IMG/VR virus record: IMGVR_UViG_3300042502_000996 | Span: 1 to 22,173 of that record | Direction: 5' to 3' (one strand) | DNA length: 22,173 nt | Source: a virus | Shown here: piece after piece, positions 1,203 to 22,173 of the stretch | Numbering within the stretch: the first letter of the stretch is position 1 | How the letters are laid out: each line of letters starts with the position of its first letter | Program-made: the position numbers and the translations under genes | The notes under the pieces: model-generated | Seen by the model: the letters and a program-made list of their open reading frames with translations, nothing else | What the model was told of the DNA's origin: nothing | Database searches by the model: none

Positions 1203-1862
1203 CTACGACTTCCTATATCCATAAACGCTAATTTGCCCAGCAGTCATTGTTCCTGAACTATCATTAAAAAATCTAAAATCCGTGTAACTGGTTGAGTTTT
1301 CTAATGAACCCGCAAAAGTTCCAACGTAACCACGCCCATAGTACCCACCATTCATTTGAGTTCTAACGGAAAGAAACGGGGCTATCAAATCAAATGTGCT
1401 AGATGTGGTTGGTACACCAGCATCAGTAAGACCAACAAACCAAAAGTTTGAATTATTCTGTGGCACAAAAGTCCACGCCGTAGCATTATATAATGCATAA
1501 ACCATGTTCCCGTAATAACCAGTAGCAGTAGTACCCATTTTCAAAGCAAGTCCTTGCGAAGCACTCGTTTGCAGACCAGTTACAACTACTCTGTAATTAT
1601 CGTAAGTTGCAGAAAAAACATTTGTAACAGCAGTTGCTGCCTCACCTGCAACAACTGCTTGCGTTTTAATGAACTCTAAACCTGTTGGGTTTTGTGCAGG
1701 GCTGTTCGGGATAACCCACGCCGTACCGTTGTAAATATACAAACGGTCCGTGTCGGTCTCAAAAATCATTTGACCTTCAAACGGCACAGCAGGGCGGGTT
1801 GAAGAAGTACACACACCAGGTTTAATAATTGATTGCGCACCAACAACAGAACTAAGAGGCAT
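1203..1862 (-). CDS. Tail fibre protein, shared-adaptor paralogue A (219 aa)
   Basis: This is one of three consecutive genes whose N-terminal 50 residues are alike: a Pro-Gly-Val-Cys-Thr-Ser-Ser-x-Arg-Pro-Ala motif, then PFEGQ, an ETDTDR turn, and a strand ending NGTAWV. That segment is the kind of attachment and trimer-nucleation module found near the N-terminus of modular phage fibres. The C-terminal 150 residues are specific to this copy: a beta-rich domain containing YDNYRVVVTGL and ending TAGQISVYGYRKS, a pattern common in phage fibre head domains. The start is the ATG at 1862, which overlaps the stop of paralogue B by one base (TAATG). A longer in-frame version would extend into that gene. 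Receptor binding is inferred. Confidence 0.8.
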   Translation of the reverse strand: MPLSSVVGAQSIIKPGVCTSSTRPAVPFEGQMIFETDTDRLYIYNGTAWVIPNSPAQNPTGLEFIKTQAVVAGEAATAVTNVFSATYDNYRVVVTGLQTSASQGLALKMGTTATGYYGNMVYALYNATAWTFVPQNNSNFWFVGLTDAGVPTTSSTFDLIAPFLSVRTQMNGGYYGRGYVGTFAGSLENSTSYTDFRFFNDSSGTMTAGQISVYGYRKS

Positions 1863-2485
1863 TATCCTGAAATCTCCATAAGGGTAATTCGGTTTACGGC
1901 ACCAGACCACAAAACAAAAGAACCACCCAATGTAGTGTGGTTTATTCCTGTAAGAGAATAAGTAATAGTTGAAGTAGTACCAGCAGTATCAAAAGCATGA
2001 ATATCGTATTGTTGATGAGCCGAAACTCCGTATGAACCAGCAGAGTTCATTTGAAAGTTGTGTGTCCAATCACCAAAAGAATTACTACTGGAAGTAATTT
2101 TATTACCAGAGCCAACAGCACCTCTGCGAATCCACAAAGAATAATAGTTAGAAAAGTTAGTTGGATAACCACCAAAAGTAAAAAATATAATTATTTTTGA
2201 AGAAGCAGACTTTGGAGTAATCTGTACAAGGTTGCTAATAAACATGGTTTCAGAAGCACTAGTAAGATTTTGGTCGCCAAATGCTGGCTGATTAGTTACA
2301 ACCTGCAAAACACTTCCGTTTGTTGTAGCAGATGACGCAAAATATCTCCACGATGAACCATTCCAAACACCAAGCATGTCGGTGTCAGTTTCATAAATCA
2401 TCTGCCCCTCAAACGGTGTTGCGGGTCTGTTAGACGAAGTACAAACGCCTGGTCTTAGCCCTTGTGTAGTAGCAGAAATAGTCAT
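1862..2485 (-). CDS. Tail fibre protein, shared-adaptor paralogue B (207 aa)
   Basis: The N-terminus carries the same adaptor as its two neighbours (LRPGVCTSSNRPATPFEGQ, then YETDTD and WNGSSW). The remaining roughly 150 residues are different: a segment with ITPKSASSKIIIFFTFGG, then IRRGAVGSG, and a C-terminus NRITLMEISG. The combination of an 'iTPkSasSKi' strand, an Arg-containing strand and a terminal LMEI motif recurs in phage fibre heads that I recognise by pattern but cannot name. The start is the ATG at 2485, which shares its A with the TGA of paralogue C (TGATG); AAGGA lies eight bases upstream. The longer in-frame reading would begin inside the neighbour and adds residues unlike a fibre N-terminus. 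Confidence 0.8.
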   Translation of the reverse strand: MTISATTQGLRPGVCTSSNRPATPFEGQMIYETDTDMLGVWNGSSWRYFASSATTNGSVLQVVTNQPAFGDQNLTSASETMFISNLVQITPKSASSKIIIFFTFGGYPTNFSNYYSLWIRRGAVGSGNKITSSSNSFGDWTHNFQMNSAGSYGVSAHQQYDIHAFDTAGTTSTITYSLTGINHTTLGGSFVLWSGAVNRITLMEISG

Positions 2486-3087
2486 CAGCGAATCCTTGTC
2501 CCAGAAAAAGAATTGTATGTAATACCAGCAGAATAAAGACCAGTAGCAGGCACAATCCACCTGACTCTTACGGTGTCAGCAACAGCAAGTTTTACTGTTG
2601 CTGACGAAATAGAGAAAACATCTGACCCCCCTTGCGCTGGTGTTTGAGAACCATTTATGTCCAACCCAGTGCTACCAGATGTGACTAATTGGATTCTAAA
2701 ATAACCGCTTGTTCCAATGTTGTAACAGTTTCCTGCAACATTAAATTGATAAATGCCAGCCTGCCCCGCAGGAACAGTGAATACCCCAGAACTGACCGAT
2801 GATGTGTCATCATACAAGGTGGTGTTGTATGCGAGATAAGCATTATTAACGACACTTCCGTTTCCCCCAGAAAAATACACAAGGAAGTTTGGGTACACCG
2901 TTGCCGAAGTTGGTGAATACGAACCTGCGCTACTTGTCAGCACCCACGCTGTTCCGTTGTATACCAACACTCTGTCGGTATCAGTCTCATAAATTTGCTG
3001 TCCTTCAAACGGAGAAGCAGGGCGAGTAGAACTAGTGCAAACCCCTTGCTTCAAAGAACCAATACCGTAAGCAGAATCTAAACCCAT
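2485..3087 (-). CDS. Tail fibre protein with C1q-like head, paralogue C (200 aa)
   Basis: Residues 1-50 repeat the shared adaptor (LKQGVCTSSTRPASPFEGQ, YETDTDR, NGTAWV). From about residue 65 the protein reads like a C1q/TNF-type jelly-roll: FLVYFSGG, an Asn-rich turn, YNTTLYDD, SGVFTVPAGQAGIYQFNVAG, and a closing strand ending YNSFSGTRIR. 'FtvP..GiYqF' is the diagnostic C1q-like strand pair, and phages use such trimeric heads as receptor binders. The ATG at 3087 overlaps the preceding stop (TGATG). As the first of three paralogues it may resemble the ancestral copy, but order alone does not show that. Confidence 0.82.
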   Translation of the reverse strand: MGLDSAYGIGSLKQGVCTSSTRPASPFEGQQIYETDTDRVLVYNGTAWVLTSSAGSYSPTSATVYPNFLVYFSGGNGSVVNNAYLAYNTTLYDDTSSVSSGVFTVPAGQAGIYQFNVAGNCYNIGTSGYFRIQLVTSGSTGLDINGSQTPAQGGSDVFSISSATVKLAVADTVRVRWIVPATGLYSAGITYNSFSGTRIR

Positions 3088-6810: not shown

Positions 6811-7650
6811 TTATGCTAGCAATACAGCCCAGGTCGCTGCATCAACTTTTCCAGTTACAGGAATGCCTTTATCTTTTTGAAATTTCTTCACAATTTCCAA
6901 AGTTTTTAAACCAAAATCACCGTCTTGTGAACACGCATAACCCTTTTCATTTAATAATGATTGAGCTTTTTTAACAGCTGGACCTTTATTATCTTTAATG
7001 ATAACTGGTTGGCTTGCGGCTGCAGCAACATTGGCTGGGGGAGTAGATGCCTTTACTTCAACAGCAGCTTTCTGTTCTGCAACAGAACCGAACATCCCCG
7101 CTGGTTTTGGGTTACGAGCAACATATTCTTGCACAGCAGCAGTTGGAGTATCTCCAGATACATAACGAATATGCCAAGGCTCTGAAGGAACAACTTCCCA
7201 ACTCCACCCAAACTTTTCAACATTTGCAATCAACCAATTCATCCTTTTCTTTTCCGAAGCACCAGCAATATCCACAGCCAGCCCGAGGTTATGCTGCGAT
7301 TTACCTGGTGTTGCAAGCATTGCCATACCTTTCTTCAAATACCAAGTCTTACCTTCAAAAGTTTTTGTTGAACCAGTACCCGTATCTTGAAGGCTATAGC
7401 GAGTTAAAAATCCAGCCTTTTGGCTGTCATAACTGCGATATAAATCACCGCTGCTCGTGGGAGTAAGTTCTACGCCAGCAGCTTTTGCAGCCTCAACCAT
7501 TGCATTCCAAGCATCTGCTGCAAGATAAAATAATTTTCCACCCGTTGGAATATCTCGCAACAAACTTGGGTGCAACTTACCTGGTTCTACACTTTTTAAT
7601 GCAGCAGGCATTTTAACTGGAACAATATAATCCCATTCAACTTTAGCCAT
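6811..7650 (-). CDS. Endolysin: M15 D,D-carboxypeptidase-type peptidase with peptidoglycan-binding domain
   Basis: This protein cuts the peptide part of peptidoglycan to release phage. Residues 60-165 are a VanY/M15 zinc peptidase. The YRSYDSQ segment is at 71-77. SQHNLGLAVDIA (118-129) supplies zinc ligands His120 and Asp127, and EPWHIRY (157-163) supplies catalytic Glu157 and zinc ligand His160. A linker rich in Ala/Pro/Lys (180-220) leads to a PG_binding_1 domain at about 223-278 (KKAQSLLNEKGYACSQDGDF, then FQKDKGIPVTGKVDAATW). All expected catalytic residues are present. There is no signal peptide, so it needs a holin to reach the wall, and holin candidates lie directly upstream. The ATG overlaps the preceding stop by one base. 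Whether it is a carboxypeptidase or an endopeptidase cannot be told from sequence alone. Confidence 0.93.
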   Translation of the reverse strand: MAKVEWDYIVPVKMPAALKSVEPGKLHPSLLRDIPTGGKLFYLAADAWNAMVEAAKAAGVELTPTSSGDLYRSYDSQKAGFLTRYSLQDTGTGSTKTFEGKTWYLKKGMAMLATPGKSQHNLGLAVDIAGASEKKRMNWLIANVEKFGWSWEVVPSEPWHIRYVSGDTPTAAVQEYVARNPKPAGMFGSVAEQKAAVEVKASTPPANVAAAASQPVIIKDNKGPAVKKAQSLLNEKGYACSQDGDFGLKTLEIVKKFQKDKGIPVTGKVDAATWAVLLA

Positions 7651-7889
7651 TATTTATCTCCTCCAACTTTTCTGTTAAACACAGCATCAATTTCTTCTAA
7701 AGATAGTTTACCATCATCTAAGAAGGCTCGTGAGAGTCCTTCTACAACAACGGCAACCCCAGCAATTCCAGCCATAAAGCAAGCTTTCCATAAAGGCACA
7801 TCGGCTATAGCGCCAGCTCCGATAACACCAAGAGCTGACGCAGAAAAAGTAGCCAGTATTCTAAAAAGAATATTCTGTATTTGTTTCAC
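7650..7889 (-). CDS. Probable holin, two membrane helices and EF-like tail (79 aa)
   Basis: Two hydrophobic helices are visible (about residues 10-29 and 33-49), separated by a short DVPLWK loop. A charged C-terminus with DDGKLSLEEIDAVF follows. The layout of two helices, a basic N-terminus and an acidic 'lDDGklsleEid' tail matches small holins of phages of Gram-positive hosts. The gene directly precedes and overlaps the endolysin by one base, the classic lysis arrangement. The start is GTG at 7889 with AGGAG five bases upstream; no better ATG exists. The Asp-Asp-Gly...Glu-Glu stretch resembles half of an EF-hand loop, but metal binding is not implied. Confidence 0.75.
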   Translation of the reverse strand: MKQIQNILFRILATFSASALGVIGAGAIADVPLWKACFMAGIAGVAVVVEGLSRAFLDDGKLSLEEIDAVFNRKVGGDK

Positions 7890-7916
7890 TTAAACTCCTA
7901 AATTATTTTAGAGGGA

Positions 7917-8114
7917 TTATTTTCCCCGACCAAAAGCAGCATCGTTTGGATTCAACCAACGCATGATTACAGGTGCAAGAGCAGCAACTCCAGCAGTACC
8001 GATAGCTTTCAAATCATGATTACCTGTCATATAAACTGCGAGTCCAGCTCCAATAAAGGATCTTGCCCAAGACGCAACCATTTTCTTATTATTCTCATTT
8101 AACAAAGTAGACAA
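7917..8114 (-). CDS. Small two-helix membrane protein in lysis block (65 aa, TTG start)
   Basis: From the TTG at 8114 the protein is 65 aa: a polar N-terminus (STLLNENNKKMVASWARS), two hydrophobic stretches (about residues 13-29 and 33-50) broken by TGNHDLK, and a basic/Gly tail NPNDAAFGRGK. The start was chosen because AAGGAGGTGG lies seven bases upstream of this TTG. Reading from the TTG at 8135 would place the ribosome binding site inside the gene. Position between two other small membrane genes and 27 bases before the 79-aa holin candidate suggests a holin, antiholin or pinholin partner. Which of the three small proteins makes the lesion cannot be decided here. Confidence 0.7.
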   Translation of the reverse strand: MSTLLNENNKKMVASWARSFIGAGLAVYMTGNHDLKAIGTAGVAALAPVIMRWLNPNDAAFGRGK

Positions 8115-8166
8115 AAGACCACCTCCTTGCCCCAACGGGCGATACTACATTATATCGTAACTATTA

Positions 8167-8334
8167 TTATTCATCATCCTTCTTGATCATTTGACCAACA
8201 AGATGAATTACAGCAGCAATTACTGTGATTTTAATTGCAGAATTAAGCGTTGGACCAGACAGAGTAATAAATACCATAAAAGATCCAGATAAAGTCCATG
8301 TTAAATCATGCATTTCTTTTAACAATTTTTTCAT
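8167..8334 (-). CDS. Small membrane protein, 55 aa, lysis block
   Basis: A short frame runs from ATG (8334) to TAA (8167). It encodes MKKLLKEMHDLTWTLSGSFM, a hydrophobic stretch through VFITLSG, a turn PTLNSA, a second hydrophobic stretch IKITVIAAVIHLVGQM, and a charged end IKKDDE. Basic N-terminus, two helices and a mixed-charge tail fit a small holin or antiholin. It overlaps the stop of the 657-aa gene by four bases (ATGA), a standard coupling junction, which supports it as a real gene despite its length. It fills what would otherwise be a gap of almost 200 bases. Function beyond 'membrane protein of the lysis block' is inference. Confidence 0.72.
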   Translation of the reverse strand: MKKLLKEMHDLTWTLSGSFMVFITLSGPTLNSAIKITVIAAVIHLVGQMIKKDDE

Positions 8335-10304
8335 TTTATTCTCCTCCTAGGCTGACCCTTACGCCTATTAATTTTAGATGATTTTCCATTATCGGGCATA
8401 CCGCCCCCACCAGCAGGTGAGCCTCCACTTCCACCCGATGACCCACCAGATAGTGGTGCAGCGCCAGCAGCAGTTGTAAGTGTTGTAGCGATTGCAGTTA
8501 CAGCAACAAATGTTCTTCTTACCCCAACATTAATGCCTGAATCAGTCGGGACATATATATCAAACACCCCTTCAAATATATTAAGTTCTTCTTCAAATGC
8601 CTCTTTCACTTCCGTAGGAGCGTCTACAAGAGCTTGTGAAATTGCAAGACCATCTTCTGCTGTAACTTCAGAAACTACAATCACATCAAAGACTTCAGTT
8701 GCTTGCGATCCATCAATGCTTTCAAGCACTTTGGGGCTTGTTGCTAATTCAGTTGCTTGATCAGCAGAAACACCGCCATCTTGACTGATAACTAAATCAA
8801 CTACTTGTGAAACTTGATCCGAACTAATTGTATCCGATTCCAAAACATCAACTACCGCAGTAAATGCTTCTTGTGTGAGAGGCTGTTCAAGCACAGCCGT
8901 AAAGGTTGTAACCAATACCTCATCAGATACTTCCTCATCAAAGATAGCCGTAATAACCGCTGTAAGTTCTTCAGTGGATACAGGTTGCGAAAGTACATCC
9001 TCGGCAAGAGAAATAGTTTCTGCATCAGACAAGTCTCCGTCAAAAGCCGCAGTAAATATTGCTGTCAATTCTGCTGATGAAAGGTCAGAACTTAACAAGT
9101 TTTCAACAATTGCACCCATCTCTTCTACACTTGCTTCCTCACTAAAGACAGTATCCATTACAATTGTAAGTTCTTCACCCGAAAGACTAGAACTCAGCAA
9201 ACTGACAAGGACTTCAGACACCTGCTCTGTATCAGATGTATCGGTAAGTACGGCATCCATCACCGCAGTAAATTGTTCAGTAGAAAGGTCTGCGTCCAAG
9301 ATATTATCAAGTGCAGCCGTTATTTCTTCTGTTGAAGCGTCAGCTGTAAAGGTGTCTTCAAGGATATTCGTTAATACCGCATCCGATATAACCTCACCGA
9401 CAGAAGGTAGCGTTATATCTGTATCAACAGTAATGTCTGTATCAGGCACACTGGTGTTCGGAACAACTTCTTCAGGAATTGAGCTTGTGGTTTCAGCAGG
9501 TGTTTCTACAACAACAGGCTCGGGATCTGGAATTGCAACTGTCGTAGGCTCTGGAGACACCTCCACAGGAGCCTCTGGGAGCGTTTCTGGTGTACTTATA
9601 ACCTCAACCGTGGTTGCTGGAGCCTCTGGTGTAATTATAACAACTACCGCTGTTGTTTCTGGGATTACTACGGTTGTTGTTTCTGGAATTTCTACGGTTG
9701 TTGTTGTTTCTGGGATGGTGCTTGTTGTTGTAGTCGTGGTTGTAGTCGTGGTTGTAGTAGTAGAGGTAGTCGTAGTGGTAGTAGAAGTTGTTGTAGTTGA
9801 TTCAACAATACCATTCCATAAAGATAAATTGCTAATTGTAAGATGACCAGGTTGACAGCAGGTATCTATTGAGTATTGGCGAAATGTAAAGATGTCGCCT
9901 TCTTCAACAGGCACAGACAAGGTTCCCGATGAAGTGTTGACTTGTGTAATCAGCGTGTAAACCCCGTTGATACCGTACTGCGGTGGGTCATATACCCAAC
10001 CGTCATTCGTTTGATATGACCAAGTGAAATCAAGAGTTTCTAAATCAGCAGGGATAATGGTTTCAATTTTGACCCAATGCGCTCCCCCACAAGGTGATCC
10101 TTGCGGTGCTAATTGGTTATCAGGACCATGTAAAGTTATGGCGTTGTCTACGGCTTCAATGTAACCACCACAGTTTTGTGATTGGCTGTATGTCCACTCG
10201 CCAAGCGCATCGGCTTTAACAGAGTACGGTGTTGGAAAAAACCAAACAAAAATAAGTGCGGGCAAAATTACCCAAGAACCTTTTCTAAATTTAATTCTTT
10301 TCAC
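8331..10304 (-). CDS. Secreted Thr-rich multidomain surface protein (657 aa), function unknown
   Basis: A signal peptide is evident: basic MKRIKFRKGS, a hydrophobic core WVILPALIFVWFF, and a likely cleavage after VKA at residue 31. Residues 36-165 form a Cys-containing beta domain (Cys45, Cys72, Cys149, Cys150) with 'TWSYQTNDGW', 'VPVEEGDIFTF' and 'GHLTISNLSLW', a pattern I associate with secreted bacterial beta-sandwich domains. Residues 170-196 are almost pure Thr/Ser, and 197-300 are Thr/Pro/Glu/Val-rich. Residues 301-560 are about ten acidic helical repeats of 20 to 28 residues (S-x-E-E-x-T-A-V-x-x-x-[VI]-[LF]). A hydrophobic stretch (598-617), a Gly/Ser run and a basic tail RRKGQPRRRIK follow. 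It starts at GTG with no ribosome binding site but a TATAAT six bases upstream. It ends inside the lysis block. An exported, possibly membrane-anchored, mucin-like protein is clear; its role is not. Confidence 0.85.
   Translation of the reverse strand: MKRIKFRKGSWVILPALIFVWFFPTPYSVKADALGEWTYSQSQNCGGYIEAVDNAITLHGPDNQLAPQGSPCGGAHWVKIETIIPADLETLDFTWSYQTNDGWVYDPPQYGINGVYTLITQVNTSSGTLSVPVEEGDIFTFRQYSIDTCCQPGHLTISNLSLWNGIVESTTTTSTTTTTTSTTTTTTTTTTTTTSTIPETTTTVEIPETTTVVIPETTAVVVIITPEAPATTVEVISTPETLPEAPVEVSPEPTTVAIPDPEPVVVETPAETTSSIPEEVVPNTSVPDTDITVDTDITLPSVGEVISDAVLTNILEDTFTADASTEEITAALDNILDADLSTEQFTAVMDAVLTDTSDTEQVSEVLVSLLSSSLSGEELTIVMDTVFSEEASVEEMGAIVENLLSSDLSSAELTAIFTAAFDGDLSDAETISLAEDVLSQPVSTEELTAVITAIFDEEVSDEVLVTTFTAVLEQPLTQEAFTAVVDVLESDTISSDQVSQVVDLVISQDGGVSADQATELATSPKVLESIDGSQATEVFDVIVVSEVTAEDGLAISQALVDAPTEVKEAFEEELNIFEGVFDIYVPTDSGINVGVRRTFVAVTAIATTLTTAAGAAPLSGGSSGGSGGSPAGGGGMPDNGKSSKINRRKGQPRRRIK
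9660..9797 (-). repeat. Poly-Thr low-complexity tract
   Basis: Mixed ACT, ACA, ACC and ACG codons encode some 25 nearly uninterrupted Thr residues, then spaced PETTT units (IPETTTTVE, IPETTTVV, IPETTAVV). Codon mixing argues for selection on the protein, not simple trinucleotide slippage. The PETT units are spaced at 9 to 10 residues. Confidence 0.85.
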
Positions 10305-10310
10305 ATATAG

Positions 10311-10316
10311 ATTATA
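10311..10316 (-). promoter_or_regulatory. Putative -10 element for a leaderless transcript of the 657-aa gene
   Basis: A perfect TATAAT on the minus strand lies six bases before the GTG at 10304. No Shine-Dalgarno exists in the 50 bases upstream, and no convincing -35 hexamer is seen. This spacing would place the transcription start at or next to the start codon, as in leaderless mRNAs, which are common in actinobacteria. Confidence 0.45.
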
Positions 10317-16745: not shown

Positions 16746-17108
16746 TTATGACCTATAACCCAGGGAGTTGATTAACTCCTGTGGCAAATATGTATTCTTC
16801 CAGAATGATACATTAGCCGACTTAGCAAGTGCTTCGCCTTCTTCCTCATCATCTTCTGGATCAACGCTCTTCTTAACTGCACCAGCTGCTGCGAAAGCAT
16901 CAACCTTTTCGGTTTGTTCTGCCAAAGCAACTTCTGCTACTTCTAATTTCTGCTGAAGCTCAGCATTCTGTGCTTCAAATCCCTTTGCGACTGTTTCAAG
17001 TTTTTCCTGAACTGAAGCTTCAACTTCTTCTTTGATTGAAGTAGCAAAGCCAGCTAGTTTCTCGTCAACAACAGCACTGAGAGCATCTTTAAGGACATTA
17101 ATATCCAT
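16746..17108 (-). CDS. Possible nested scaffold protein, in-frame internal start (120 aa)
   Basis: Within the protease gene an ATG at 17108 has a consensus AGGAGG (17114-17119 on this strand) five bases upstream, stronger than the site of the full-length gene. Starting there gives 120 aa: MDINVLKDALSAVVDEKLAG, a heptad-like helical region to about residue 75, an acidic DPEDDEEEGE stretch, and the C-terminus INSLGYRS. This is the size and character of a phage scaffold. The layout mirrors lambda, where the Nu3 scaffold is made from an internal start in the protease gene C. The alternative is that the AGGAGG is a coincidence of Gln-Glu-Glu codons (CAG GAG GAA), so this is a proposal only. Confidence 0.45.
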   Translation of the reverse strand: MDINVLKDALSAVVDEKLAGFATSIKEEVEASVQEKLETVAKGFEAQNAELQQKLEVAEVALAEQTEKVDAFAAAGAVKKSVDPEDDEEEGEALAKSANVSFWKNTYLPQELINSLGYRS

Positions 17109-18680
17109 TTCTTCCTCCTGTGTGTTTCCAATTACTTCAATTGTGTTTGAAGCCTTTTCTTCAACATCTGGCACAAGCCAATTAACAAACTTTTTTACAA
17201 GCGAAAGTCTGTTGATGTCTTGTTCATTCATGTCAGAGATCTTATCATAAGTATCATTTAATTGCAATTCTGTATCTTGCTGCATAATTAATTCCATATT
17301 TTCATTTTCCTTTTTAAGTATAGCAAAGTTTTCTACATTAGTCTTATCATAATCAAAGCTTTTTGTAGTATTTGCAAATATCTCGTTTAGCATACTCAGA
17401 ATATGAGCTGCCGATGGCTCGCCATCTTGGTTTTCTGATTTAACAGTAATATCAGGAACACAGTTTGGAACCATATTTCCATTCCCATCTTCCTTTTCGC
17501 CCTCTTGATGATAACCGTCAAGACAAGTATTTTCTTCTTTCTTCATCTTCTTTTTTGGCTTAAACTTTGGATAACCAGATGGCGAATTTGCCATAGTTGG
17601 AGTCTTAAATTTCCCCTGTGAGGGATATTTTGATTCTGCATTGTCTGTACTAACAGACACTGCTGGTGCCCCACCGCCTGCACCAAGACCATCTTTTGCA
17701 ATATCTCCACACTCCCCACACCCACAATCACACTCATCTTCTTTTGCAAGATCAATAATCTGTTCCAAAAGAGCATCTTCAAAAGAAATTGACTCATCAA
17801 AATCATTTTCAAAATCTCCCTTTTCTTTTGTTTTTGCGTATCTCTCAAGAAGCCTTCTGCCTTTAGCAGCCAGTTCTGCTGCATCTGCCATATTTTGTGG
17901 AACTGGCTCACCCCATGCTGCTGCTGAAAGAGCAAGTCTGCTTGGTTCACCATTAGGCTTTTTCATTGGTCCAGATGGATTTGTAAAAAATCTTGTTAAG
18001 AAAGAACCCTTACGGCGCATTTTCTCAGGAGTATCTGCAGCACCACGAACTCCTGGTTTAAGATTTGCGCCTTCAGTTTCCTTGAAGTGCCTTCTTCCTG
18101 CAGCAGTTAATCCACCTTTTGGATCTTTAAGCGGTTGCTTTGCTTTTGCCAATTGGCAATCAAGATCGCAATCAAGAGCGTACTTGAATAAGCCTTCTTC
18201 ATTCATTTTAACAATGTCAATAATAGCCAGCGCATTTGCTGGGTTGTCAACTAGGCTCAATTCTCCAAGGACATACTCTTTAATAATACTTACTGGCTTT
18301 CCTTTAAAAAATTTTTCAGAAGATTCTTCTCTAGAGACAACTTTGCCTCCAATAGAGAAAGAACGAAGTGTGCCATCCAACACCTTTTGCCAAGTGTCTT
18401 CAGCGCCTTTAGAAATATAAGCTTCTACTTTAAAACCATTATAAACAGCACCGTCTTCACCTTGAATAATAATTGGCTCATAACTTACTGCTTTGCCAAC
18501 TGCAATAGGGGAATGCATTTCTCTGATGTTTCCACCCCAATTTGCAAAAGCTTCTCTAGAGGCTTCAAAGTCAACAATGTCACCAGATTTATCAACATTA
18601 TCTGCTGTAGCAATACCTACAACAATACGCTGCTCCCTTTTAATCATATCAATAGGGAAGGCAAAATTAAAATCTGTCAT
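16746..18680 (-). CDS. Prohead protease fused to a DUF6321-like domain and scaffold-like tail (644 aa)
   Basis: It processes the capsid shell during head assembly. Residues 1-160 are a phage prohead serine protease (XkdF/U35-like): the His in REMHSPIAVGKAV (about 56), the Ser in LRSFSIGGKV (about 109) and an acidic residue in VLGELSLVDNPA (about 140). Residues 186-285 match the DUF6321-type block (GGLTAAGRRHFKETEGANLK, then KGSFLTRFFTNPSGPMKKPN). Residues 315-326 are Cys-rich (DECDCGCGECGD), and a second Cys/His segment CLDGYHQ...NCVP lies near 386-408. The last 120 residues are an acidic, coiled-coil-like scaffold (VDEKLAGFATSIKEEVEASV). The ATG at 18680 has GAGG about nine bases upstream; a GTG six bases earlier would sit too close to it. 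At 644 aa it is much longer than a plain prohead protease. Confidence 0.86.
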   Translation of the reverse strand: MTDFNFAFPIDMIKREQRIVVGIATADNVDKSGDIVDFEASREAFANWGGNIREMHSPIAVGKAVSYEPIIIQGEDGAVYNGFKVEAYISKGAEDTWQKVLDGTLRSFSIGGKVVSREESSEKFFKGKPVSIIKEYVLGELSLVDNPANALAIIDIVKMNEEGLFKYALDCDLDCQLAKAKQPLKDPKGGLTAAGRRHFKETEGANLKPGVRGAADTPEKMRRKGSFLTRFFTNPSGPMKKPNGEPSRLALSAAAWGEPVPQNMADAAELAAKGRRLLERYAKTKEKGDFENDFDESISFEDALLEQIIDLAKEDECDCGCGECGDIAKDGLGAGGGAPAVSVSTDNAESKYPSQGKFKTPTMANSPSGYPKFKPKKKMKKEENTCLDGYHQEGEKEDGNGNMVPNCVPDITVKSENQDGEPSAAHILSMLNEIFANTTKSFDYDKTNVENFAILKKENENMELIMQQDTELQLNDTYDKISDMNEQDINRLSLVKKFVNWLVPDVEEKASNTIEVIGNTQEEEMDINVLKDALSAVVDEKLAGFATSIKEEVEASVQEKLETVAKGFEAQNAELQQKLEVAEVALAEQTEKVDAFAAAGAVKKSVDPEDDEEEGEALAKSANVSFWKNTYLPQELINSLGYRS

Positions 18681-18706
18681 TAACACACCTCGTAACTATA
18701 TAGCAT

Positions 18707-21028: not shown

Positions 21029-22173
21029 CTACTTAACTGGGCATGCTCCTGTAGCACAATCATCCATTTCAATGGTCAGATCGGTAGAGTTTTGATGAAT
21101 AGGTGTTGAAAAATCCAATTTGTTGAGAGCTTTCTCATATTCCTCTTTACTGATTTCTTCATATGGCGGAAGTGCAAAGTTATGATCAACATGCAACAGG
21201 AAAGATACTGACTTAACCGATGAATCATAATTCTTAGACAGCCATTCTTTTATAGAACTAAGCTCTTCTTTTTTATAATACACAGTTACCGATACAGCAT
21301 TATCAGCCCAAACAGTTTGCATTTTCCTTACCCATTCAAGTTGTTCAATAGCTGTCATATTTGAAGCAAGAATTGAATTTTCTGGAGATTGGCAAGGGAA
21401 CTCAACAACATAGCGAGTATGGTCTTCACGACCATCCAAACCCATATCCCAAGTTACTTTATAGCCTCTCTTTCGGCAGGCATCAACTAATGGGTCAACA
21501 GAGCTGAACCGCACCCTGCGAATATAGTAAGGGGCAAAAGCTGGGTGAATACCAGGAGTTACGCCTGGAAGCAATGACAAAGTTCCTGAAGGTTGAACAG
21601 TGGTCAATCTAACTGATTGATTCCAGCCTCTTTCTTTGCTATAGGACTGATCGTAGGATTTTAGGTAATCATAAGCTTCAGACAACCAGCCAATTTGCTT
21701 TTCATCACATTGCAAAATACCAGTAATAGATTGCCCAAGTCTAGTGTTCTTTCTAACGATGTTAGTAGTTTTTTCGTATGGGTAAGATAGTTGCGTAATT
21801 TGCTTTTGAACCAAATACAACAGTCTTGAAATTTCTAACAACTGGGCTAGACTTTCAACATTAGGTAAAAAGATTGTTGCAAGGTTACACGACTCACCAT
21901 CTGCAAGCGCAATCTCTGCGCAAGGATTGAATCCTTCAATAGAGGGATCTAGGGATTTCTCACCAAGTCTTCCATAAGTTCTTGCAAGTTTGCGGTTGAC
22001 AAGACCATATGGTTCTCCTGTACCATCATAACCCTTCCAGAGTTCAGGAAGGATTTCATCATAAGCGTCTGCATAAATACTATTATTACTGTTGGCTCGC
22101 CAAGCAGGAATATTTCCAGAACCCCAATTCTTTGCTTTCAAAAACAACATATCATCAGGATCACCAATAGCAA
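21029..22173 (-). CDS. nrdJ: Class II adenosylcobalamin-dependent ribonucleotide reductase, C-terminal part
   Basis: It reduces ribonucleoside triphosphates to deoxynucleotides using a B12-derived thiyl radical, supplying DNA precursors for phage replication. The reading frame is open to the right edge (AIGDPDDMLFLKAKNWGSGN...), so the N-terminal half, with the allosteric and first active-site parts, is outside the window; the ATG at 22150 is internal. Visible residues include FNPCAEI (thiyl radical Cys and Glu), a partner Cys 11 residues later (SCNLATIFL), PSGTLSLLPGVTPGIHPAFA (substrate phosphate binding) and the C-terminal CATGACPVK. The Cys spacings (11 and 5) equal those of the Lactobacillus leichmannii monomeric enzyme (408/419 and 731/736). 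It ends 63 bases before the head genes. No intein or frameshift is seen in this part. Confidence 0.93.
   Translation of the reverse strand, partial: AIGDPDDMLFLKAKNWGSGNIPAWRANSNNSIYADAYDEILPELWKGYDGTGEPYGLVNRKLARTYGRLGEKSLDPSIEGFNPCAEIALADGESCNLATIFLPNVESLAQLLEISRLLYLVQKQITQLSYPYEKTTNIVRKNTRLGQSITGILQCDEKQIGWLSEAYDYLKSYDQSYSKERGWNQSVRLTTVQPSGTLSLLPGVTPGIHPAFAPYYIRRVRFSSVDPLVDACRKRGYKVTWDMGLDGREDHTRYVVEFPCQSPENSILASNMTAIEQLEWVRKMQTVWADNAVSVTVYYKKEELSSIKEWLSKNYDSSVKSVSFLLHVDHNFALPPYEEISKEEYEKALNKLDFSTPIHQNSTDLTIEMDDCATGACPVK

Follow-up and report, generated by a model that had tools for sequence, protein, structure and literature searches.

A two-gene module of phages and Acidimicrobiia chromosomes that may display exchangeable lectin-like domains on infected cells

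Introduction

Phage proteins that are worn by the infected cell are a known kind. The superinfection-exclusion gene of phage T5, whose product Llp prevents superinfection, adjoins the receptor-binding gene, and superinfection exclusion has been credited with preventing non-productive adsorption to fragments of lysed cells (PMC9586334). T5 Llp and T1 Cor are exported envelope proteins encoded beside receptor-binding genes and, as such, offer a possible functional analogy, without homology, to the phage protein described here; they differ from it in being small lipoproteins that act on outer-membrane receptors and have neither stalk nor partner. A second comparison is with LysZ of the Corynebacterium phages CL31 and Cog, which is described as a protein of 177 aa with one transmembrane domain (TMD) in an N-in/C-out orientation (PMC13056207). 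LysZ is likewise a membrane-anchored phage protein in a lysis setting and is proposed to act on cell-surface glycans, but no stalk, solenoid or two-transmembrane (two-TM) partner is described for it; compared by description, our protein departs from LysZ in its length (657 aa) and in its combination of a signal peptide with a C-terminal TM helix. Stalked surface proteins of the LPXTG and PEP-CTERM types also resemble it, in that a motif, a hydrophobic helix and a basic tail follow one another at the C-terminus; it has neither motif and instead carries a YVPx(2)SxIxVx(2)RR segment and a dedicated two-TM partner.

The partner falls within phrog_29041, which has no assigned function, and the large protein is in no PHROG. 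Pfam, NCBIfam, PHROG and PADLOC have no model for either the C-terminal core or the large protein as a whole, in keeping with an earlier, sequence-only reading of this DNA, which knew of no described phage family with such an architecture. PADLOC gave no match to anti-phage defence or counter-defence models, no solved structure matched the core by sequence, and no related description was found in the open-access papers searched. A fused homologue is encoded by the lake metagenome-assembled Actinomycetia phage DSL-LC01 (WJZ48438.1, annotated as hypothetical); it has other ectodomains, groups weakly with host sequences, and is not discussed as such a protein in the available part of PMC10611076. 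In the sources searched, neither the module nor its partner nor its host relatives appear to have been described.

Setting and architecture of the 657-aa protein

The window, the whole stretch of DNA analysed, is a 22.2-kb viral record whose late genes all lie on the minus strand, in the order portal, prohead protease, capsid protein, tail genes, 657-aa gene and lysis block. Its capsid protein shares 53% identity with the one in Samisti12/Jay2Jay-type Streptomyces phages, and WhiB is encoded in five of the six large contigs that bear relatives; these two findings indicate an actinobacterial host, and we place the host of the window phage among freshwater-type actinobacteria. The large gene runs from 10304 to 8331 on the minus strand, starts with GTG and encodes 657 aa. 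The positions given in the sequence-only reading (8331-10304) are right, on the minus strand. Features of the locus are as follows.

10311-10316, minus strand: −10 hexamer (TATAAT) of the putative leaderless-type promoter of the pair, ending 6 nt ahead of the GTG
10212-10304, minus strand: signal peptide, residues 1-31, ending VKA/D (sequence, hydropathy)
9807-10211, minus strand: ectodomain, a Cys-containing beta-sandwich, residues 32-166 (AF2 model, fold matches, conservation)
9705-9806, minus strand: poly-Thr tract, residues 167-200
9387-9704, minus strand: T/P/E/V-rich (PETT-type) stalk, residues 201-306, differing in length among relatives
8589-9386, minus strand: acidic alpha-solenoid, residues 307-572, in 17-residue helical units whose number differs among relatives (autocorrelation, AF2 model, alignments)
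8514-8807, minus strand: conserved C-terminal core, residues 500-597, ending YVPx(2)SxIxVx(2)RR and common to host proteins
8460-8528, minus strand: C-terminal hydrophobic (membrane) helix, residues ~593-615 (hydropathy, AF2 helix)
8334-8459, minus strand: Gly-rich linker and basic tail, residues 616-657
8334-8167, minus strand: 55-aa two-TM obligate partner (phrog_29041), its ATG overlapping the large-gene stop by 4 bp
7917-8135, minus strand: holin-like 72-aa two-TM protein, the next gene after the module and a neighbour outside it
7650-7889, minus strand: holin-like protein (phrog_443, phrog_26427), neighbour
6811-7650, minus strand: endolysin with VanY and PG_binding_1 domains, neighbour

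The order of parts that had been read from the sequence alone (signal peptide, Cys-containing beta domain, about 25 near-consecutive Thr residues, long PETT-type stalk, acidic helical repeats, hydrophobic stretch and strongly basic end) holds throughout, with one change of number. The signal peptide, judged by sequence inspection, hydropathy and conservation, has n-, h- and c-regions ahead of its VKA/D end, and K30 and A31 are invariant in 18 relatives; there is no lipobox (no Cys at +1) and no LPXTG-like motif ahead of the TM helix in the translated sequence. AlphaFold models residues 31-166 as a beta-sandwich (pLDDT 87, pTM 0.84). In the tract that follows, 25 of 34 residues are Thr, with a longest run of 13, a length reached in none of 10,000 composition shuffles of the protein; the tract mixes ACT, ACA, ACC and ACG codons, which rules out a simple DNA repeat.

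Autocorrelation over residues 307-585, whose net charge is −61, peaks at 17 and 34 residues, and AlphaFold renders the C-terminal part (mean pLDDT 80) as a row of ~17 short helices followed by one long hydrophobic helix. The repeats are thus acidic as first described, but "about ten" was an undercount of single helices. The solenoid has no PDB fold match at E ≤ 0.001, and its Pfam matches to Glycos_trans_3N and GatB_Yqey, below or near cut-off and limited to short helical stretches, were set aside as chance. In the core, 7 host and 13 viral sequences all keep F-E, Y, S and R-R. Hydrophobicity of the final helix is only moderate. The invariant Arg-Arg (residues 596-597; 8519-8514, minus strand) lies on what is presumed to be the outer side of this helix; kept in hosts and phages alike, it breaks the positive-inside rule and, like the moderate hydrophobicity, counts against the reading that we put first below.

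One scan of IMG/VR yielded 138 loci encoding relatives of the large protein, 77 of them distinct and retained. Their alignment shows a fixed order: signal peptide, ectodomain, stalk, solenoid, core ending YVPx(2)SxIxVx(2)RR, and hydrophobic helix. The window gene begins TATAAT-N6-GTG, with no Shine-Dalgarno sequence, and the promoter-like hexamer that the sequence-only reading had pointed out is real: diverged relatives keep TATAAT at its exact distance. TATAAT-N5/6-GTG stands at the orthologue start in about a dozen (L003, L005, L007, L008, L014-L016, L018, L027, L029, L031 and L039), where the rest of the upstream DNA varies and a Shine-Dalgarno sequence is again absent; L006, L019 and L055 have a Shine-Dalgarno sequence in place of the leaderless-type start. 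Leaderless promoters are common in actinobacteria.

An obligate two-TM partner

The partner gene, missing from the default list of open reading frames, has its ATG at 8334-8332, across the large-gene stop at 8333-8331. Among 65 evaluable relatives, 16 are fused to the two-TM protein and the other 49 lie directly upstream of a separate two-TM gene, at spacings from a 4-bp overlap to ~100 bp. A reciprocal search seeded with the two-TM family only, whose results partly overlap the first contig set, found at least 585 IMG/VR loci; in 80 of the 81 with enough upstream sequence for evaluation, the core protein is encoded directly upstream, and in the remaining one it lies 215 bp further up. Fusion and adjacency in the first set, together with the reciprocal result, make the pair obligate. 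At such numbers, it is a common, if unnamed, gene pair, and the viruses that carry it probably have as hosts aquatic actinobacteria that are abundant but poorly cultured.

The sequence-only reading took the overlapping gene for the first of the lysis block. The four-base overlap is real, but the gene is not simply a first lysis gene, because it was never seen without the large protein and its profile has no significant similarity (hhalign) to the two neighbouring holin-like families; a common origin with those families is not supported. In six fused relatives, a strong Shine-Dalgarno sequence (AGGAGG in L021, L026, L032, L060 and L070, AAGGAG in L002) precedes an in-frame internal ATG at the start of the hairpin, which suggests that they probably make a second, separate two-TM product from one gene. 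Such a product in the five AGGAGG relatives, the two-TM architecture and the position ahead of the holin would suit a lysis timing device comparable to RI and T of T4, with the two-TM protein acting as holin or antiholin under the control of the large protein from outside the cytoplasm. We nonetheless regard such a device as very unlikely, given that the two-TM protein was never found apart from the large protein, has no profile similarity to the neighbouring holin families and is present in host chromosomes.

Relatives in Acidimicrobiia chromosomes

Host homologues, which the sequence-only reading had proposed looking for in actinobacteria, exist in Acidimicrobiia genomes. One Acidimicrobiaceae MAG contig (L081) carries the core amid ordinary chromosomal genes, and matches occur in 7 of 395 genomes in a class-wide sample and in 14 of 222 genomes of the family that includes the L081 genome; these samples overlap and consist largely of draft genomes, so that both counts are lower bounds. 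A sample drawn across the phylum had 2 matches in 396 genomes, neither of them new to the Acidimicrobiia set. A host scan with the full-length alignment found no relatives, and one with the C-terminal part found them; the former came up blank because its search patterns lay in the phage-specific ectodomain. In L081, the homologue (7554-8998) occupies two reading frames, with a frameshift between 8174 and 8288 that reflects either decay or an assembly error. A further candidate, L080 (Gammaproteobacteria MAG JAURLY010000091.1), was rejected as a host member and not counted: its fused homologue is followed by holin and endolysin genes, and the contig looks like a mis-binned phage.

In the wider regions, the neighbours of the host genes are housekeeping genes, with synteny common between genomes (glyoxalase-like/DedA, P450/MFS and groEL/tsaD). 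The two-TM module is either fused or encoded by the next gene (the latter in L107, L110 and L117); it was not seen at L105 or L106, and L106 reaches its contig end. These Acidimicrobiia surface proteins (L081, L085-L090 and L105-L117) share with the window protein a signal peptide, the core ending in RR, the C-terminal helix, the two-TM module and, in most cases, a stalk rich in Thr or Pro; the window pair, for its part, has the FE/Y/S/RR core, the partner immediately downstream, and the signal peptide with a low-complexity stalk. They differ from it in having other ectodomains (DUF4082, RCC1 and BspA-like DUF285), few solenoid helices and no phage genes around them. A tree of the core puts the host sequences in two places among the viral ones, although several of its deep branches are weak. 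Capture from a host surface protein had been guessed at from the stalk; the occurrence of the same module in ordinary chromosomal surroundings of Acidimicrobiia supports, by sequence comparison, an exchange between phage and actinobacterial surface protein. The pair links a class of host surface proteins to a phage late gene and serves as independent evidence for the host group of such phages.

With its signal peptide, stalk and membrane helix, its partner in the membrane and its relatives among surface proteins, the 657-aa protein is likely to be displayed on the infected cell, in line with the export that the sequence-only reading had proposed. The gene does sit among tail genes, as that of a virion fibre or decoration protein with an incidentally hydrophobic N-terminus would; a signal peptide, a C-terminal TM helix, an obligate membrane partner and host surface-protein homologues make a virion role highly improbable.

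Exchangeable ectodomains

The window-type ectodomain has a mean column identity of 81% across 37 phages and is under strong purifying selection (median dN/dS 0.12 over 68 pairs within the group having the window's ectodomain). It has no Pfam match and no match in a search of the phage record collection. Foldseek matched it to carbohydrate-binding modules (CBM35, 16, 4, 29 and 61) at E ~1e-4, with a low TMq of at most 0.58 among the matches listed, and jelly rolls are generic folds; the best PDB fold matches include phage tailspike domains besides carbohydrate-binding modules (TM-score ≤0.58). The ectodomain was not found in any of the tail proteins examined, and a ligand shared with tail proteins therefore cannot be argued from sequence; nor was it found in 222 host genomes, a weak result from a search run without a positive control.

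Other viral members keep the core with different ectodomains, some of them without a Pfam match: PA14, which has a lectin-type fold in other proteins, scores above the gathering threshold in L032, L078, L121, L191 and L194, and fn3 occurs in L198. As such, viral ectodomains are swapped between members. PA14 and fn3, along with the adhesin-type domains of the host members, would also fit an adhesin or coat, by which the infected cell sticks to cells or particles or has its own coat replaced through host-type anchoring; what either would gain the phage in the late stage of lytic growth is hard to see, and we consider this improbable.

Gene neighbourhood and possible functions

A lysis-block setting, assigned to the gene from the window alone, is correct there but is no general rule. 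A VanY endolysin lies within 1.5 kb of the pair in 32 of 55 loci of the first set and in 36 of 70 of the second; in other relatives (e.g., L008, L019 and L027), the pair is beside tail-fibre genes and the endolysin is ~10-19 kb away. Genes upstream frequently encode tail or fibre proteins bearing Gly_rich_2 or fn3.

The frequent lysis-cassette setting, seen in the window as a place just ahead of the holin and endolysin genes, is compatible with a lysis role as well and counts against the masking of receptors put forward below, of which a LysZ-like lysis aid is the main rival. An accessory lysis factor of this kind, or a Gram-positive "spanin," would be an anchored glycan-binding protein that loosens the outer wall after holin and endolysin have acted. 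We think this unlikely, since the endolysin is distant in the three relatives named above, host chromosomes keep the module without lysis genes, the pair has its own promoter, and LysZ is described as much smaller and oriented N-in/C-out.

The reading that we put first, a plausible one if somewhat short of even, is that the pair is a phage-borne two-component surface-display module, present also in Acidimicrobiia chromosomes, whose ectodomain masks surface sugars. The signal peptide would export the large protein, and the C-terminal helix and two-TM partner (a single polypeptide in the fused relatives) would hold it in the cell membrane; the acidic solenoid and Thr-rich stalk would then carry an exchangeable ectodomain of lectin-like type across the wall to the outside. 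The leaderless-type promoter presumably drives the pair from within the late (tail/lysis) region, and infected cells, given that location, probably wear the protein late. The idea that Acidimicrobiia possess a cell-surface anchoring system composed of the RR-ending core and an obligate two-TM partner, with no sortase or lipid anchor, and that phages use it to redecorate infected cells with such domains, strikes us as a nearly even possibility. Stalked proteins would then be anchored in a Gram-positive-type envelope by a route that is undescribed and open to testing.

Receptor masking itself, which we favour by analogy with T5 Llp and its gene beside a receptor-binding gene, is a tentative and rather doubtful suggestion. 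The ectodomain may bind a cell-surface glycan and so mask sugars used by the phage's own tail fibres, which would cut superinfection and the loss of progeny to cells or debris. Display with masking is consistent with the pairing, the host members, a fold whose best, low-scoring matches include carbohydrate-binding modules and tailspike domains, the swapped ectodomains, the low dN/dS, the conserved promoter and the fibre-gene neighbours. If masking is true, the pair would be a superinfection-exclusion system made of host-type surface protein parts.

Other genes in the window and its relatives

Three tandem, partly overlapping small genes on the minus strand of the window (1203-1910, 1862-2560 and 2485-3087; span 1203-3087) share the N-terminal segment GVCTSS(T/N)RPAxPFEGQxIxETDTD and diverge beyond it, resembling an array of fibre-tip genes on one common anchor. 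Also on the minus strand are a tail-type protein with ~7 near-identical (T)ATQIANxTI repeats (737-1222), a gene in which a prohead protease is joined to DUF6321 and to a long, charged and probably scaffold-like region (16746-18686), and, at the window edge, the C-terminal part of a ribonucleotide reductase gene (21029-22150).

Among the relatives, a second gene (MARARGLG..., ~187 aa), which lies ahead of a terminase-like gene, has a leaderless start as well, in the form TATAAT-N6-ATG (L008 11430, L015 9663, L016 10560 and L039 10268). In the large relatives L008 (8177-11392), L016, L027 and L039 (7836-10260), the genes after the pair encode a glycosyltransferase-like protein, either a PhyH dioxygenase or a methyltransferase, and an epimerase, a possible glycan-modifying cassette.
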